Part shown: in pieces, positions 1,914 through 8,706 of the stretch
Layout: the number at the start of each line of letters is the position of its first letter
Numbering within the stretch: the first letter of the stretch is position 1
From: Clostridia bacterium
Lineage (GTDB): Bacteria > Bacillota > Clostridia > Oscillospirales > CAG-272
Direction: 5' to 3'
Length of the DNA: 64,000 bases
Assembly: GCA_017481595.1 (NCBI GenBank)
Contig: JAFUOY010000017.1
Span: forward strand, 1-64,000
Program-made: the position numbers and the translations under genes
The notes under the pieces: generated by a model
Told to the model about the DNA's origin: nothing
What the model saw: the letters and a program-made list of their open reading frames with translations, nothing else
The model's database searches: none

Positions 1914-1952
1914 TAAAAAAACACCCCGCGTCGCAAATGCGACGTGGGGTGT
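1914..1952 (-). terminator. Intrinsic terminator of the opp operon
   Basis: GC-rich hairpin 1921-1952 (ACACCCCGCGTCGC, loop, GCGACGTGGGGTGT) followed on the minus strand by a run of seven T. It lies 70 bp beyond the oppA stop codon. Confidence 0.9.
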
Positions 1953-2021
1953 TGTCTTTTATCAAGACACCTTATCTTAAAGTGCAATACATAAGATATC
2001 CTGAGGCGCTAATCTTAAATA

Positions 2022-3785
2022 TTAGCCCTCTTTGATTTCGTAATACTTCTTGAGTGTTTCAAGAGCCTTCTTAACGTTAGCCTCGTAAGCCTCTCTGCTT
2101 ACGTCGTAGTAACCGTCAAAGTCGTCTGTTGTGCTGTTAGCGTTCTTGTAGAATTCGTTATTATCAGCATCTGTCATACCCATAGCAACGAAGGAGGAAG
2201 CAGGAACCTGTCCACCCTGAGCAACGTCTTCAACGATGTAGTTACGGTCGAGAAGGAGGGAAACCGCATTACGGATTTCCTGCATAGCCTTTTCAGCCTC
2301 TACACCCTTAAGCTCGCTGTCTTCGGGAAGAATGTTCTTGTTGATGTTCCAGCATACGTAGTATGTACCGATCTGACCGGGGATCTTCAACTGGCTGCTG
2401 TACTGGGGATCATTCTTAAGGTTCTTGATTTCGTTTGTAGGAATGCTATCGATAAGCTGCCATTCGCCCTGCTTGAACTTAACGAGCATCAAGTTATCGT
2501 CATCGGAAAGGAAGCAGTTGATTGTAGGCATTGTAACGTTTTCAGCGTCGTAGAATTCAGGGTTCTTTTCAAGAACGATCTTGGACTTGTGCTCCCAGGA
2601 CTTCATTGTGTAAGGACCGTTACAGATGTATGTGGAGGGGTCTGTAGCCCAGTTTTCGCTGTTAAGAGCGGAGGAGTGAACGGGCATGTATGTGGGGAAT
2701 GCGAGAAGCTCATTCCAGTAAGCAACTGCGTTGTTAAGTGTAACAACGAGAGTTCTGTCGTCTGTAGCTTCAACTGCAAGATCCTCGGGGTTATCTGTGC
2801 CGTAGCCCTTAACAACCTCAAACATGTAGCCGTAGTCAGCACCGAGTGCAGCGGATGCAGCTCTCTTCCAAGATCTTTCAAAATCTTCAGCTGTAAGAGC
2901 ATCGCCGTTGCTCCACTTAAGGCCTTCCTTAAGTGTGTATGTGTATGTAACTGTACCGTCAGCATTTGTAACGCCCTCGGGAAGGGATTCAGCAAGGTCA
3001 GCAACGATGGAGAGCACGCCATCAACCTCTGTCCACTTTGCAAGACCTGCAAAGAGGTGAGCGATCATTGTAGCGCCGTCAACAGCGGAGTTAAGAGCGG
3101 GGTCAAGGGACTGGGGCTCGGAAGCGAGACATACGTTTATGTAATCCTGACCGTCAATTTTGGAGTTCATAAAGTACTTATATCCAAGAGGGTTGGAGAA
3201 GAAGCCCTGTACGCTGGAGTCGATCATATAAAGGTCTGTGTAGAAGTAAAGAGGAGTGATACAGCCTGTTGCCATAAGCATATCCTCTGCCATGTGCATC
3301 ATCTTGTAACGCTTAGCGGAGTCTGTACATGTCTTGATTCTAGTAATAAGAACGTCATATGTCTGAGCCCATGTGCCGTTTGTAACCTTATCTGAGTAGC
3401 CAAGGCCTGTGAGGTCGAGGTTGTACATCTTAAGGTTAGCGTGCGCGCCCTTACCGTACTGAACGTCGTTGTTACCGGAGCCGGATGTCCACATATCGAG
3501 GAAGCAGATAGGATCGTTGTAGTCAGCGAGCCAACCGTTACGTGCGATTGTGTATTCACCGTTCTTACGTGTGTCAAGGAATGTAGCCCATTCCTGTGTT
3601 TCAAGGGTCATTGTAATACCTACTGTATCGAGTGCGCCCTGAATGTATTCGCCAATTGCCTTGTGTCCTGAGCCTTCGTTGTAGAGATAGTCAAGGGAGA
3701 GTGTTCCTTTTTTGGAGCCGCCGCAAGCAACTGCCATACTCAACACCATAACTATACAAAGAAGCAATGCTAAAAACTTTTTCAT
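2022..3785 (-). CDS. oppA: Oligopeptide-binding lipoprotein OppA, apparently circularly permuted
   Basis: Extracellular family 5 solute-binding lipoprotein (587 residues) that would capture peptides for OppBCDF. A signal peptide ends in the lipobox AVAC (Cys21). The domain order is unusual. Residues 28-210 (YLYNEGSGHKAI, LETQEWATFLDTRKNGEY, GWLADYNDP, ITPLYFY) correspond to the part that is C-terminal in ordinary OppA. Residues 211-587 (ASEPQSLDPALNS, YTYTLKEGLKWSNGD, NGPYTMKSWE, AVSLLLDRNYI) correspond to the part that is normally N-terminal. The protein ends at LKKYYEIKEG, where normal OppA would run into the lobe now placed first, so both edges fit a clean permutation. The frame is intact and AAAGGATA precedes the ATG. 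The gene is last in the opp operon but has its own promoter at 3911-3939. Assembly error is possible but would need two in-frame joints. Confidence 0.9.
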   Translation of the reverse strand: MKKFLALLLCIVMVLSMAVACGGSKKGTLSLDYLYNEGSGHKAIGEYIQGALDTVGITMTLETQEWATFLDTRKNGEYTIARNGWLADYNDPICFLDMWTSGSGNNDVQYGKGAHANLKMYNLDLTGLGYSDKVTNGTWAQTYDVLITRIKTCTDSAKRYKMMHMAEDMLMATGCITPLYFYTDLYMIDSSVQGFFSNPLGYKYFMNSKIDGQDYINVCLASEPQSLDPALNSAVDGATMIAHLFAGLAKWTEVDGVLSIVADLAESLPEGVTNADGTVTYTYTLKEGLKWSNGDALTAEDFERSWKRAASAALGADYGYMFEVVKGYGTDNPEDLAVEATDDRTLVVTLNNAVAYWNELLAFPTYMPVHSSALNSENWATDPSTYICNGPYTMKSWEHKSKIVLEKNPEFYDAENVTMPTINCFLSDDDNLMLVKFKQGEWQLIDSIPTNEIKNLKNDPQYSSQLKIPGQIGTYYVCWNINKNILPEDSELKGVEAEKAMQEIRNAVSLLLDRNYIVEDVAQGGQVPASSFVAMGMTDADNNEFYKNANSTTDDFDGYYDVSREAYEANVKKALETLKKYYEIKEG

Positions 3786-3910: not shown

Positions 3911-3939
3911 ATTATAACAGATTTAATGAATTTTGTCAA
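3911..3939 (-). promoter_or_regulatory. Consensus promoter for oppA
   Basis: TTGACA (3934-3939) and TATAAT (3911-3916) on the minus strand with exactly 17 bp between them, overlapping the last codons of oppF. It would give extra binding-protein transcript independent of the operon promoter. Confidence 0.8.
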
Positions 3940-4912
3940 GGTTGTGACAAGCGACAAAGTGTCCCTTGCTTACTTCCTTGAATTCGGGCATTGAAGATGC
4001 GCATTCCTCAGTTGCGTAGGGGCAACGTGTACGGAAGGGGCAGCCCGAGGGTGCGTTTAATGGGCTGGGGATGTCACCGCCAAGGGCAATACGCTGATTA
4101 GCTCTTGCAATCTTGGGGTCGGGAATGGGAACTGCGGAGATCAGAGCTCTTGAATAGGGGTGGAGAGGTCTTTCGTAGATCTCACCCGCGTCAGCAAGCT
4201 CAACCATCTTACCAAGATACATAACCGCAATACGGTCACTGATGTGGCGTACTACAAGCAAGTCGTGGGCAATAAAGAGATAGGTAAGACCGATCTTATC
4301 TCTCAATTCGTCAAACATATTGATAACCTGCGCCTGAATTGAAACGTCAAGAGCAGAAACAGGCTCATCACATACGATAAACTCGGGATTAACCGCAAGA
4401 GATCTTGCAATACCGATTCTTTGACGCTGACCGCCTGAGAACTCGTGGGCGTAACGTGAAGCGTGCTCACTGTTAAGGCCAACGTGATTCATAAGCTCAA
4501 GTATACGGTCCTGACGCTCTTCCTTAGTTGTGTAAAGCTTATGAACGTCAAGGGGCTCACCGATAATATCGGATACCGTCATACGGGGGTTCAAGGATGA
4601 ATAGGGATCCTGGAAAACCATAGTAGCCTTCTTACGGAACTCCTTTATATCCTCCTTTGTTTCAATAAGCTTACCGTTGTAGTAAATTTCACCTGCGGTA
4701 GGCTTGTAAAGGTGGAGAAGAGTACGGCCAACCGTTGTCTTACCGCATCCGGATTCACCAACGAGACCGAGAGTCTCACCCTTATTTATATAGAAAGAAA
4801 CGTCATCAACAGCCTTTAAGGGCTTTGTTTTGAATGCTCCAACGTTGATATTGAAGTATTCCTTAAGGTGCTTAACCTCTACAAGGGGGGGATTTTTAAT
4901 TATTTCGCTCAT
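3923..4912 (-). CDS. oppF: Oligopeptide ABC transporter ATPase OppF
   Basis: Cytoplasmic ATP-binding subunit (329 residues) that, paired with OppD, powers peptide import. Visible are Walker A GESGCGKT (about 52-59), the signature FSGGQ (about 158-162), Walker B with CDEP, and the C-terminal oligopeptide/dipeptide extension with the cysteines of CPFRTRCPYATEEC. The ATG overlaps the oppD stop as ATGA, so the two are translationally coupled. Full length for the family. Confidence 0.96.
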   Translation of the reverse strand: MSEIIKNPPLVEVKHLKEYFNINVGAFKTKPLKAVDDVSFYINKGETLGLVGESGCGKTTVGRTLLHLYKPTAGEIYYNGKLIETKEDIKEFRKKATMVFQDPYSSLNPRMTVSDIIGEPLDVHKLYTTKEERQDRILELMNHVGLNSEHASRYAHEFSGGQRQRIGIARSLAVNPEFIVCDEPVSALDVSIQAQVINMFDELRDKIGLTYLFIAHDLLVVRHISDRIAVMYLGKMVELADAGEIYERPLHPYSRALISAVPIPDPKIARANQRIALGGDIPSPLNAPSGCPFRTRCPYATEECASSMPEFKEVSKGHFVACHNLDKIH

Positions 4913-5925
4913 TTCTTACCCTCCTTACCTTTTTTAACGGTTATAGTGCCGTCTTCAATGCCTTTTTTTACGTTCATCCAGCAGCAAGCCCAATGATTTT
5001 CGTTAATAACCATTGTTTCGGGACGGTTGTAGATACAAACCTTCATTGCCGCGTCACAACGGGGAGCGAAGGGACAGCCCTTAGGCATATTGAGAAGGTC
5101 AATAGGAGTACCTGTAATGGGTTGAAGCTTTGTTCCTGAGGAATCCGCTGTGGGGATGGAGCGCAAAAGACCCTTTGTATATTCGTGACAGGGGTTGTAG
5201 AATATTTCATCCGCCGTACCCTGCTCACAAATAGAGCCTGCGTACATAACGATGACCTCGTCACACATCTGCGCAACTACGCCAAGGTCGTGAGTGATCA
5301 TAATAATAGCCATACCAAGCTCCTTCTGAAGCTGATTCATAAGCTCAAGGATCTGAGCCTGAATAGTAACGTCAAGGGCTGTGGTGGGCTCGTCGGCGAT
5401 AAGGATATCGGGCTCGCAGGCAAGTGCCATAGCGATTACGATTCTCTGTCTCATACCGCCGGAAAATTCGAAGGGATACTGGTTCATTCTCTTTTCGGGC
5501 TCGTTGATGTTTACAAGCTTAAGCATTTCAATAGCTCTTGCCTTTGCCTCCTCCTTGTTACGGGGAGTGTGGAGCAAAATTGCCTCCATAAGCTGGTGCC
5601 CGATGGTGTAGGTGGGGTTAAGAGATGTCATAGGGTCCTGGAAGATTATAGAGATCTTGTTACCGCGAACAGTTCTCATAACCTTTTCACCGGAGTTTAC
5701 AAGCTCCTGTCCGTCAAGCTTAACGGAGCCGGAAACTATTTTACCGGTGGATGCAAGAATTTGCATAATGGAATAAGCGGTAACGGATTTACCCGAGCCT
5801 GATTCTCCAACTATACCGAGAACCTTACCGCGTTCAAGACTGAAGGAAACGCCGTTTACGGCTTTAACCTCGCCCGCATCCGTAAAGAAGGAGGTATGCA
5901 GGTCTTTTACTTCAAGTAATGCCAT
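4909..5925 (-). CDS. oppD: Oligopeptide ABC transporter ATPase OppD
   Basis: Second ATP-binding subunit (338 residues) of the Opp importer. Walker A GESGSGKS lies near residues 40-47, the signature is FSGGMRQRI, and Walker B reads ILIADEP. The C-terminal extension carries CPFAPRC and CIYNRPE, the region that in related transporters binds an Fe-S cluster. It lies between oppC and oppF with very short gaps. Confidence 0.96.
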   Translation of the reverse strand: MALLEVKDLHTSFFTDAGEVKAVNGVSFSLERGKVLGIVGESGSGKSVTAYSIMQILASTGKIVSGSVKLDGQELVNSGEKVMRTVRGNKISIIFQDPMTSLNPTYTIGHQLMEAILLHTPRNKEEAKARAIEMLKLVNINEPEKRMNQYPFEFSGGMRQRIVIAMALACEPDILIADEPTTALDVTIQAQILELMNQLQKELGMAIIMITHDLGVVAQMCDEVIVMYAGSICEQGTADEIFYNPCHEYTKGLLRSIPTADSSGTKLQPITGTPIDLLNMPKGCPFAPRCDAAMKVCIYNRPETMVINENHWACCWMNVKKGIEDGTITVKKGKEGKK

Positions 5926-5939
5926 ATTTACGTTCCTCC

Positions 5940-7001
5940 TTAGCTATTGATCTTGGGGTCAAAGGCATCGCGCAAGCCGTCGCCAAAGAGGTTCAAGGAA
6001 AGCACGATAAGTGAAATTACGATTGCAGGGATAACCAGACGGTAGGGATAAGACATAACACCGTTGAGTGCGTCGCTGGCAAGGGAGCCAAGGGACGGCA
6101 TAGGCGCGTTTACACCGAGACCGATAAAGGAAAGGTAGCTTTCCGTAAAGATAGCGCTGGGGATCTGGAGAGCTGTGGAAATAATGATAACGCTGATACA
6201 GTTAGGTACCAAGTGCTTCATAATGATCCAACGGCTGCCTGCGCCCGTTGCTTTTGCAGAGAGAACGTATTCCTGCTCACGAAGGGAGAGGATCTGACCT
6301 CTTATAAGTCTTGCCATGGATACCCAGTAAAGAAGGGCGAATACGATAAACAAGCTTATTATGTTTCCGCCAATAGCCTCAAGGAACGTACCCTTTAAGG
6401 CGTCTCCGAATACCAGCTTAAATACGGTAGCAAGAAGAATAACCATAAGCATATCGGGAAGTGAGTAGATAATATCAACGATACGCATTATAACAAGGTC
6501 CACCTTGCCGCCGAGATAACCTGCAAGGGAGCCGATGGTCATACCGATAACAAGAACGATAATGCTGGCAAAGAAGCCTACGGTAAGTGAAATTCTCGTA
6601 CCGTATACCACTCGTATAAAGTAATCTCTGCCTGCGGAGTCAGTACCGAAAATATGGGGGAATACCTTTTCGCCGTTTTCAATACGCTCAAGCTCTGTTG
6701 CGCCGTATTCAAAGGGCTTTAAGTTGTTGTAAGATGGATCAACGGGCTTAAAAAGCTGCTGACCGAGCTGCTCGTCATACTCATAGGGCCATACCATAGG
6801 TATGATAAGACAAGCGATAGTAATAAATACAATAATAAAGAAGCTTACTGTTGCTACTTTGTTTTTGAGAAGACGCTTTACGCCGTCCTTAAAGAAGGTT
6901 GACGGAGGACGCATCTTGACCATATATTCTTTTTCTTCAGCGGTAGCGGGAATGAATTGATCTAAATCCACCTGCATGCTGAAAGGATTTTTCTTTTTCA
7001 T
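5940..7001 (-). CDS. oppC: Oligopeptide ABC transporter permease OppC
   Basis: Inner-membrane permease (353 residues) with an N-terminal OppC_N segment (first helix near residue 52), then the binding-protein-dependent transport domain with about five further helices. The EAA loop (VLSAKATGAGSRWIIMKHL) contacts the ATPases. A long extracytoplasmic loop follows helix 1, as usual for OppC. It starts 15 bp after oppB ends, with an AAAGGGG ribosome binding site. Confidence 0.95.
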   Translation of the reverse strand: MKKKNPFSMQVDLDQFIPATAEEKEYMVKMRPPSTFFKDGVKRLLKNKVATVSFFIIVFITIACLIIPMVWPYEYDEQLGQQLFKPVDPSYNNLKPFEYGATELERIENGEKVFPHIFGTDSAGRDYFIRVVYGTRISLTVGFFASIIVLVIGMTIGSLAGYLGGKVDLVIMRIVDIIYSLPDMLMVILLATVFKLVFGDALKGTFLEAIGGNIISLFIVFALLYWVSMARLIRGQILSLREQEYVLSAKATGAGSRWIIMKHLVPNCISVIIISTALQIPSAIFTESYLSFIGLGVNAPMPSLGSLASDALNGVMSYPYRLVIPAIVISLIVLSLNLFGDGLRDAFDPKINS

Positions 7002-7016
7002 GACGATCCCCTTTCT

Positions 7017-7943
7017 TTATTCCAAGGTAATACGAGGGTCAACCACTTTATAAAGGATATCGCCCACGAGGTTCATAATAACGATAAGGCTGGCAAGAAT
7101 AATAGTTGTACCCATAACCATAGGATAGTCACGGTTTGTAATGCTGCTAACAAATTCCTTACCGATACCTGCAACGCCGAAGATCTTTTCAACAACGAGG
7201 GAGCCTGTAACGATATAAGCAAGCATAGGACCAAAGTATGTGATTACGGGGATAAGCGCGTTCTTGAGCGCGTGGCCAAAAATAATTTTCGGACCGGAAA
7301 CACCCTTAGCCTTAGCAGTTCTTATGTAGTCCTGACCGAGAACGTCAAGCATGGAGGAACGGGTAAGACGGGTAATGTGTGCCATAGGATAAAGGGCAAG
7401 AGTGATAGTAGGAAGGATAAGACCGCCTGCAGTATCACCGAAGGTGTGCATATTCAACACAAACGAGCCTAACAGTAATAGAGCAGTACCCATAATAAAT
7501 GAAGGCATTGAAATAAATGCGGTGGTAATAACCATTATTACACGGTCAATAACCTTATTTCTCTTAAGTGCCGCAACGGAGCCGAGTACAACGCCGATAA
7601 CCAGCGCGGAGGCAGCTGCGATAAGACCGAGGGTTGCGGAGGTCTTCATACCGTCACTAATAATATCAACAACCGTACGTCCTCTCTGCTTAATGGAAGG
7701 ACCGAAATCAAACTCGGTAATAATATCCTTCAGATAGGTGATGTACTGCTGGAACAATGGCTTGTCCAAGCCGTATTTTTCTTTTAGCGCCGCTTCAACC
7801 TCAGGTGAAACAGCCTTTTCTGCCGTAAAAGGACCGCCGGGTATCAGGTGAACTACGAAAAAGGTTACCGTAATAACAACCCAAATGGTCAAAATGGCAA
7901 GTAGAATTCGCTTTAAGATATATAACATCGTTTTGGAATTCAT
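7017..7943 (-). CDS. oppB: Oligopeptide ABC transporter permease OppB
   Basis: Inner-membrane permease (308 residues), first gene of the operon. It has the typical OppB start (ILKRILLAILTIWVVITVTFFVVHL contains helix 1), six predicted helices and the EAA loop YIRTAKAKGVSGPKIIFGHAL. It ends in the family motif VVDPRITLE. AAAGGAAAGG precedes the ATG at 7943. An in-frame ATG five codons later is a less favoured alternative. Confidence 0.95.
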   Translation of the reverse strand: MNSKTMLYILKRILLAILTIWVVITVTFFVVHLIPGGPFTAEKAVSPEVEAALKEKYGLDKPLFQQYITYLKDIITEFDFGPSIKQRGRTVVDIISDGMKTSATLGLIAAASALVIGVVLGSVAALKRNKVIDRVIMVITTAFISMPSFIMGTALLLLGSFVLNMHTFGDTAGGLILPTITLALYPMAHITRLTRSSMLDVLGQDYIRTAKAKGVSGPKIIFGHALKNALIPVITYFGPMLAYIVTGSLVVEKIFGVAGIGKEFVSSITNRDYPMVMGTTIILASLIVIMNLVGDILYKVVDPRITLE

Positions 7944-7963
7944 TTAATACCTTTCCTTTCTTC

Positions 7964-8002
7964 CCATACGCTAAAACCTTTTAAAATAAAAAAAGCGTAT
8001 GG
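7964..8002 (-). promoter_or_regulatory. Inverted repeat in the oppB leader
   Basis: Arms CCATACGCT and AGCGTATGG (9 bp) enclose a 21-nt AT-rich loop directly before the oppB ribosome binding site. In the mRNA it could form a hairpin next to the start, or at the DNA level serve as an operator. No known riboswitch is recognisable in the roughly 160-nt leader. Confidence 0.45.
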
Positions 8003-8109
8003 CTATGTTAGATTATTTGGCAAATGGGCAATAAAAATTTGAAGAAATATCGTAAAATAAATGATAAAATTCCTTAAAAATCAGTCTGCTCGAAAAATTA
8101 GCCAAAAAC

Positions 8110-8138
8110 ATTATAGCACAAAGATTTCTTTTTGTCAA
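8110..8138 (-). promoter_or_regulatory. Consensus promoter of the opp operon
   Basis: TTGACA (8133-8138), a 17-bp spacer and TATAAT (8110-8115) on the minus strand. It implies a leader of about 160 nt before oppB. Confidence 0.85.
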
Positions 8139-8206
8139 TTAGTACTAAATATATTATATAATATTTTTTTAAAAAATAAAATAAATGAAGAAAATGAAAA
8201 AAGGTA

Positions 8207-8235
8207 TTGACACGATATAAATTTTGTGATATCAT
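8207..8235 (+). promoter_or_regulatory. Promoter reading towards tRNA-Ser
   Basis: TTGACA (8207-8212), 17 bp, TATCAT (8230-8235) on the plus strand. No gene lies between it and tRNA-Ser, so the precursor would carry a leader of about 375 nt. Confidence 0.65.
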
Positions 8236-8279: not shown

Positions 8280-8592
8280 GCAGGAATAGCAAAACCTTGT
8301 TTTGTGCTTCGGCAGCCCCTTGTGAGCGAGCTCCCAGATGGCTTTGCCTTGCATACGCAGCGGATTCGCGAAATAAATATCGCGAGCCACTTCGATATGA
8401 CGCCTGCATATTTAATTGTAGCGATGCACAAAATTAGAAATGCAGATGAAGCATTATAGTATACAGGAATATCTCACTGACGTGAGGTTACCCACACTTG
8501 CCGCTTACAAGCGAGCTTGACACGGCTTTGTGGGGTACACGCAGCGGATTCGCGAAATGGATTTCGCGAGCCAATTCGATATTGACCTGCAT
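8280..8592. repeat. Two tandem structured units before tRNA-Ser
   Basis: Unit A (8280-8409) and unit B (8463-8592) share their ends and a central block. Each begins with CAGGAATA and ends with TTCGATAT(G/T)GAC plus CCTGCAT, nearly the reverse complement of the start. Both share ACGCAGCGGATTCGCGAAAT followed by TCGCGAGCCA. The middle differs but holds unit-specific hairpins such as CAAAAC-CTT-GTTTTG in A and CTCAC-TGA-CGTGAG in B. The start resembles the 5' end of the downstream tRNA (GCAGGAATATCG). No coding capacity is apparent. They look related to the hairpin arrays of this window. Confidence 0.6.
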
Positions 8593-8620
8593 ATATGATG
8601 CAAGGCTGCATCATATATGC
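8589..8620 (+). repeat. 14-bp hairpin overlapping the tRNA-Ser 5' end
   Basis: Perfect stem GCATATATGATGCA / TGCATCATATATGC with a 4-nt loop. The last two bases of its right arm are the first two bases of the tRNA acceptor stem, so the hairpin and the mature tRNA fold compete at the 5' processing site. Confidence 0.75.
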
Positions 8621-8706
8621 AGGAATATCGAAGCGGTCACAACGAGGCGGTCTTGAAAACCGTTAGGCCAAAAGCCACGGGGGTTCGAATCCCTCTTCCT
8701 GCGCCA
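8619..8706 (+). tRNA. tRNA-Ser (anticodon UGA)
   Basis: 88 nt including encoded CCA. The acceptor stem pairs GCAGGAA with TTCCTGC. The anticodon arm is CGGT-CTTGAAA-ACCG with anticodon TGA. A long variable arm (GGC CAAAA GCC) marks it as class II. The T arm GGGGG-TTCGAAT-CCCTC is canonical. The D arm is somewhat unusual. A strong terminator follows at once. Confidence 0.93.

Follow-up and report, generated by a model that had tools for sequence, protein, structure and literature searches.

The window, by which we mean the whole stretch of 64,000 nucleotides that was analysed, contains on its minus strand an oppA-like gene that encodes a lipoprotein and lies directly downstream of oppB-, oppC-, oppD- and oppF-like genes (Table 1). 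The preliminary description of this DNA had placed the gene in an intact opp operon behind a promoter of its own, and both statements hold, the second as a pattern: the sequence TTGACA-17-TATAAT agrees with the sigma-70 consensus at 12/12 positions and has an extended -10 TG. The extent given for the gene was likewise correct, and its strand is minus. The stem-loop downstream of the gene was called on the plus strand, with a T run also on the minus side, and the one structure found compares with 2.1 expected in shuffled sequences. In the flanking DNA a pair of direct repeats at 25-143 and 1371-1489 (119 nt, 93%) was seen on either side of an open reading frame at 218-1483 that looks membrane transporter-like by eye. 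A second pair lies at 8340-8398 and 8524-8582 (59 nt, 83%), and the intergenic segment 8706-8935, which follows a tRNA-Ser gene (8619-8706), is rich in palindromes, with inverted repeats bordered by ATCATC/GATGAT.

Table 1. Features of the opp locus and segments of the permuted binding protein (window coordinates)
Feature	Position	Strand	Remark
oppB-like permease (BPD_transp_1 + BPD_transp_1_N)	7017..7943	-	
oppC-like permease (BPD_transp_1 + OppC_N)	5940..7001	-	
oppD-like ATPase (ABC_tran + oligo_HPY)	4909..5925	-	
oppF-like ATPase (ABC_tran + oligo_HPY)	3923..4912	-	
sigma-70 consensus promoter-like site, overlapping the oppF end	3911..3939	-	pattern match only
circularly permuted oppA-like gene	2022..3785	-	587 aa lipoprotein; type A: signal peptide - old C half - linker - old N half
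residues 1-27, lipoprotein signal peptide (Cys-21) and six-residue tether	3705..3785	-	read from the sequence
residues 28-208, C-terminal half of linear homologues	3162..3704	-	holds H41, R73, R82, W85, D88
residues 206-217, linker from old C-terminus to old N-terminus	3135..3170	-	MNSKIDGQDYIN
residues 209-587, N-terminal half of linear homologues	2025..3161	-	
terminator-like 15-bp stem-loop with T-rich flank, downstream of permuted gene	1920..1953	.	pattern match

The two halves of the protein were found in rotated order. The Pfam profile SBP_bac_5 (PF00496) was matched in two stretches with 213.3 bits, compared with a curated cut-off of 32.4, and it was matched late and then early along the protein: the upstream DNA at 3698-3468 corresponds to profile positions 290-367 in the whole-genome profile scan, and residues 260-579 correspond to profile positions 2-274 in the Pfam search. 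The same picture was obtained with phmmer against OppA of Bacillus subtilis (8are), where residues 31-109 aligned with 371-451 (i-Evalue 6.4e-10), residues 143-208 with 457-522 (4.4e-4) and residues 212-550 with 18-344 (1.8e-45), so that, as judged from these alignments, the rotated order is far beyond chance. Every segment is thus homologous and rotated, the old termini are joined by a linker and the new termini lie at one formerly internal site. The preliminary description had held that the present end and the present beginning would be neighbours in a normal protein, and in linear relatives the corresponding motifs LKKYY and TLTYLYN are indeed about 10 residues apart; the lipoprotein signal peptide that it reported is also present, with Cys-21. 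The gene is therefore confirmed as a natural circular permutant of a family 5 (OppA-like) lipoprotein in which the C half precedes the N half, and given that the order of SBP_bac_5 along it is not linear, it was filed as a permuted variant and not as an ordinary family member. The PDB sequence matches (n = 51) were named oligopeptide-, dipeptide-, heme-binding and similar proteins.

Related loci were collected by a scan of one genome per species, which gave 345 related stretches, and the best 80 were used together with the window (81 rows). For typing of segment order the window protein was cut into three pieces, each of which was mapped on every open reading frame; since the search patterns were derived from the window's own protein, the sample is biased. 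The 81 rows comprised 31 of the window's order (type A, including L045, which is cut by a contig end), 16 of a second permuted order (type B; 15 typed and one cut row with a matching ending) and 34 linear proteins, the halves of which are 63-79% identical to those of the window protein. A lipobox, by our own loose pattern, was found in 30/30 type A rows with a usable N-terminus. The loci came from cattle, sheep, goat, deer, yak, buffalo and horse and from several metagenome projects, and near-identical pairs from different hosts or projects agreed in order (L007/L008, 98%; L012/L016, 97%).

These relatives bear on the possibility that metagenome assembly put the two halves together in a false order. 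The window genome is 62% complete in 41 contigs and all 80 loci are from metagenome-assembled genomes (MAGs), which makes the concern a natural one. However, a misassembly would have had to produce a 587-codon open frame with an intact signal peptide and a stop, the same junctions recur in the 30 other type A rows from different hosts and projects, the linker at the junction is conserved, and the other permuted types show other consistent orders. Because separate MAG projects show the same order, an assembly error is very unlikely indeed, and we attach next to no weight to it. The search of related genomes that the preliminary description had proposed as a check thus came out in favour of the rotated order, and the normal linear profile order that it had named as a refutation was not found.

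A third permuted order (type C) was found in nine genomes of more distant relatives, all confirmed on their DNA: five belong to the window's family (G211, G298, G328, G314 and G244) and four were found at the order level (G640, G541, G425 and G513). The window gene is thus a real natural circular permutant, from a family in which three kinds occur. To Pfam, type C looks normally ordered, since the model spans just the middle part of the protein, and annotators should be warned that such genes pass as ordinary ones. In one type C protein (L116:7158-8921) the signal peptide starts MKQLISRRSFLQG and has twin arginines before the Cys, and is presumably Tat-like.

The distribution of the orders over the taxonomy was uneven. 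In the GTDB family of the window, 36/295 genomes matched at 1e-50, with 11 type A (the window's own included and two cut; all confirmed), 5 type C and 20 linear, the last number being taken from the row pattern with 11/20 confirmed on DNA. At the order level there were matches in 43/394 genomes (8 type A, own included, 2 type B, 4 type C and 29 linear by row pattern), and in the phylum 68/398 genomes matched at 1e-40, namely the window's own, one type B (G728, confirmed in L139) and 66 with a linear pattern, a small number of them checked. None of the 28 other genomes of the window's genus had a match, from which we infer that transfer or loss seems frequent. A search of 20 genomes showed that the 15 with type A or B hold no close linear copy, although these genomes may be incomplete, and that the 5 with a linear copy hold no permuted one. 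Two type B copies occur in G041, and G640 has a close linear copy in addition to its type C copy. Downstream of a type B gene, at L119:6457-7101, there is a 215-aa frame whose match to the family is confined to the C half, and which is perhaps a second, broken binding protein.

The permuted gene occupies the place of the linear gene in the operon. The arrangement oppB-C-D-F followed by the binding protein gene, which is last, was complete in 27/31 type A, 11/16 type B and 30/34 linear rows, and the B, C, D and F proteins are 66-88% identical to those of the window regardless of the order in the binding protein. The remaining 13 rows had fewer opp genes within the DNA examined, and several of them appear to start at or near a contig end; for one type B locus (L043) no opp match was found in 3.4 kb upstream. 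The type C loci L113, L114, L116 and L117 have the identical gene order, at 54-70% identity.

Residues H41, R73, R82, W85 and D88, all in the half that has been moved to the front, are invariant in 25 type A proteins and align with H371, R404, R413, W416 and D419 of OppA, which are described in the consulted part of PMC6305025 as contacts of the docked peptide. Four of these pocket residues are invariant in 14 type B proteins, and the His is nearly so. The ratio dN/dS (NG86) was 0.05-0.18 in 8 pairs of type A genes, 0.12-0.20 in 3 type B pairs and 0.11-0.14 in 3 linear pairs, and these 14 hand-picked pairs show purifying selection on permuted and linear genes alike.

It could be argued that the permuted copy is decaying or has no task, and that transport is served by another binding protein. 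Some type C genes would fit this: one of them (L115:2211-3893, G425) is broken by one in-frame stop and four others (L094-L097, from G298, G328, G314 and G244) have lost the pocket motif RNGWLADYNDP and have no opp genes within the 6-7 kb read; in L122 the gene (6480-8210), which also lacks the motif, is surrounded by other genes, and 16 kb of sequence gave no opp match. The type C proteins that lack the pocket motif may have acquired a new role. For the window gene, decay is very improbable given the low dN/dS in all 11 type A and B pairs, the invariant pocket in type A, the consensus promoter-like site and the lack of a close linear copy in the 15 possibly incomplete permutant genomes.

Another explanation is that the gene is a chimera of two paralogues, with the C half of one and the N half of another, and with a changed function. 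The best matches of the two halves do differ, and linear rows score almost as high as these: the N part is 71.7% identical to L005_A, the best type A row, and 70.4% to the linear L049, and for the C part the values are 79.1% (L006_A) and 78.7% (L067_LIN). The correlation between the distances of the two halves is also imperfect, with r = 0.69 for all rows. The linear rows, which are surely single proteins, gave 0.75 and the type A rows 0.85, however, i.e. the halves of type A proteins correlate at least as well. As the pocket residues of the moved half are invariant and the gene lies in the same operon setting as its linear relative, there is little to recommend a chimeric origin.

We therefore consider it highly probable that the product of the window gene is a functional peptide-binding lipoprotein of an OppABCDF-type system, and a natural circular permutant with its anchor on domain III. 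From its sequence and context, the permuted protein would be expected to fold as OppA, close on peptides and dock on the same OppBCDF translocator.

The three permuted types differ in where the chain is opened. In type A the opening lies between the LKKYY end and TLTYLYN (TLSLDY in the window), in type B after NxxLLP and before IRxAIG, and in type C between GNNDxQFG and WxxYDxLI. By alignment, these sites fall near residues 359 (A), 284 (B) and 443-446 (C) of Salmonella typhimurium OppA. With the domain limits given in PMC6305025 (domain I, 1-44, 189-269 and 487-517; domain III, 270-486), all three openings are in domain III, and domain I holds both of the natural termini. Each permuted type would thus have its lipid anchor shifted from lobe I to lobe II.

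The junction of the old termini is more uniform. The type A and B linker is 12-14 residues long in the 43/47 rows that were measurable by our own pattern, with a consensus of about MYTTVDGKTDSIS, and in the rows with a variable flanking motif (L009, L036, L042 and L046) the linker stretches appear to be of similar length. In linear proteins the chain stops a few residues past GYKYF(M), and the N-terminal tethers are variable (7-49 residues in the 29/34 rows with a lipobox pattern). We read the common linker as a sign that types A and B may go back to one fusion. The type C linkers in L093, L113 and L114, read off the sequences, are 13 residues long, so that a geometric limit on linker length is also likely.

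The number of order changes was estimated on trees of the binding protein and of the transporter. In the tree of the binding protein (79 rotated rows, which leaves out the two short rows L044 and L045) there were 6 order changes, compared with a shuffled mean of 34.8, and in a rooted tree made from 47 of the 79 rows (32 left out) and 15 added ones there were 7. The oppBCDF tree, which is unaffected by the permutation, has 65 tips and gave 6 changes against a shuffled mean of 27.7; when only supported branches were considered, our own greedy bound gave a rough lower limit of 4 changes. Neither type A nor type B formed a clean clade in the free trees. In the 79-row test, trees in which A, B or A+B were held together outscored the free one, with margins of 30.5, 23.1 and 15.3 log units (p-AU 0.84, 0.75 and 0.71, respectively), which means that the free search had missed better trees. 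A comparison in IQ-TREE with 51 rows, omitting type C, L107, L109 and the four most distant linear rows, placed the free tree best; A+B as one clade was 21.9 units worse (p-AU 0.39), A and B as one clade each had p-AU 0.22 in a search started from the nested tree, both nested had p-AU 0.20, and none was rejected. As the constrained A+B trees were not rejected, a single origin of types A and B is allowed.

The position of type C is different. In the transporter tree all 4/4 type C tips (100/100) fall outside a clade, likewise at 100/100, that unites the linear with the A/B operons, and a linear clade separates type C from A/B with support of 100/100 in this tree and 98/92 in the binding protein tree. 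The simplest reading of this placement is two separate permutation events. Within type B, the transporter tree joins two linear rows, L049 and L051, to L034_B with 100/100 support in a B clade (99.5/100), and the L034_B protein is 83-84% identical to those of the two linear rows, which is read as an order switch, by replacement or re-permutation, in a narrow group. The linear L064 among type A tips and L139_B among linear tips are both weakly placed in the same tree, and L031_A is closer to type B rows (68%) than to any type A row (63%).

Alternatively, all three permuted types could descend from a single ancient circularisation, in which case the inner group's linear forms would have reverted. 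The 13-residue linker shared by the three type C proteins would fit this, as would the linear L049 and L051 inside the B clade, but the linear clade between type C and A/B is well supported, reversion requires repeated re-permutation, and gene replacement by transfer gives the same picture. A single event for all three types therefore appears rather unlikely, and two separate events remain our preferred reading. The chances are about even for a still broader history, in which the head-to-tail fused fold was re-opened in at least three places, all in domain III, and more than once, and possibly re-closed to the linear form, with its operon place and partners kept. If this were true, the choice of lobe I or lobe II for the lipid anchor would be free to change in the evolution of an ABC importer.

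Permutation by duplication is a general model. Applied here, the likely route would be an in-frame tandem duplication in which the copies are fused head to tail, with both ends then trimmed behind the signal peptide. In the window protein the former termini, which belong to domain I of OppA, are connected by about 12 linker residues, and the opening of the chain, between LKKYY and TLSLDY, maps to domain III; the signal peptide and lipid anchor would consequently sit on domain III (lobe II) and not on domain I. One fusion could yield types A and B, and type C would probably be separate. Duplication, fusion and trimming would explain both the shared linker and the retained signal peptide. The preliminary description had suggested such a duplication with loss of the outer halves, and the route is still plausible, but no trace of its steps was seen: no remnants of a duplication were detected within 3.5 kb of the 81 genes at E 0.01, and frame lengths and HMM segments revealed no fused dimers in the loci whose DNA was examined. 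The model therefore fits the linker common to A and B, with no intermediate found among these loci.

The nearest known systems are the OppA/DppE proteins of cluster C (8are; S. typhimurium 1b05), with which the window protein shares SBP_bac_5, the pocket residues, the lipoprotein signal and the oppBCDF partners, and from which it differs in the rotated halves, the fused old termini and the anchor on domain III. As a rule, natural circular permutation has been recognised between distantly related proteins, and its origin is hence hard to trace. Here, linear and permuted orders coexist in close relatives and in the same operon, which allows one to ask when permutation happens, whether intermediates persist and what the move of the anchor costs or gains an ABC importer. 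It seems that in a group of gut bacteria a peptide-import protein has been rearranged several times while being kept working. Among the matches listed for open-licence PubMed Central articles there was no report of a natural permutant of OppA or of family 5, an absence that carries little weight.

A permuted and lipidated binding protein has been described in another fold. According to the consulted part of the crystallographic report on TpMglB-2 (Tp0684) of Treponema pallidum (PMC4990184), this circularly permuted lipoprotein binds glucose, changes shape on binding and was proposed as 'Type Ic / Cluster Bc', and between its final 100 residues and the beginning of EcMglB the identity is only 13%. 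The window protein is similarly a natural permuted, lipidated substrate-binding protein, with the permutation known from sequence. As far as the same excerpt goes, TpMglB-2 has a type I (cluster B) sugar-binding fold and one opening, whereas the proteins described here belong to cluster C and have three, and their halves are 63-79% identical to linear relatives. Membership of the window protein in a TpMglB-2-like cluster B sugar-binding group was ruled out, as SBP_bac_5 was the only Pfam family over the cut-off. The loci L034, L049 and L051, with both orders within one close group, are a good place for seeking an intermediate.
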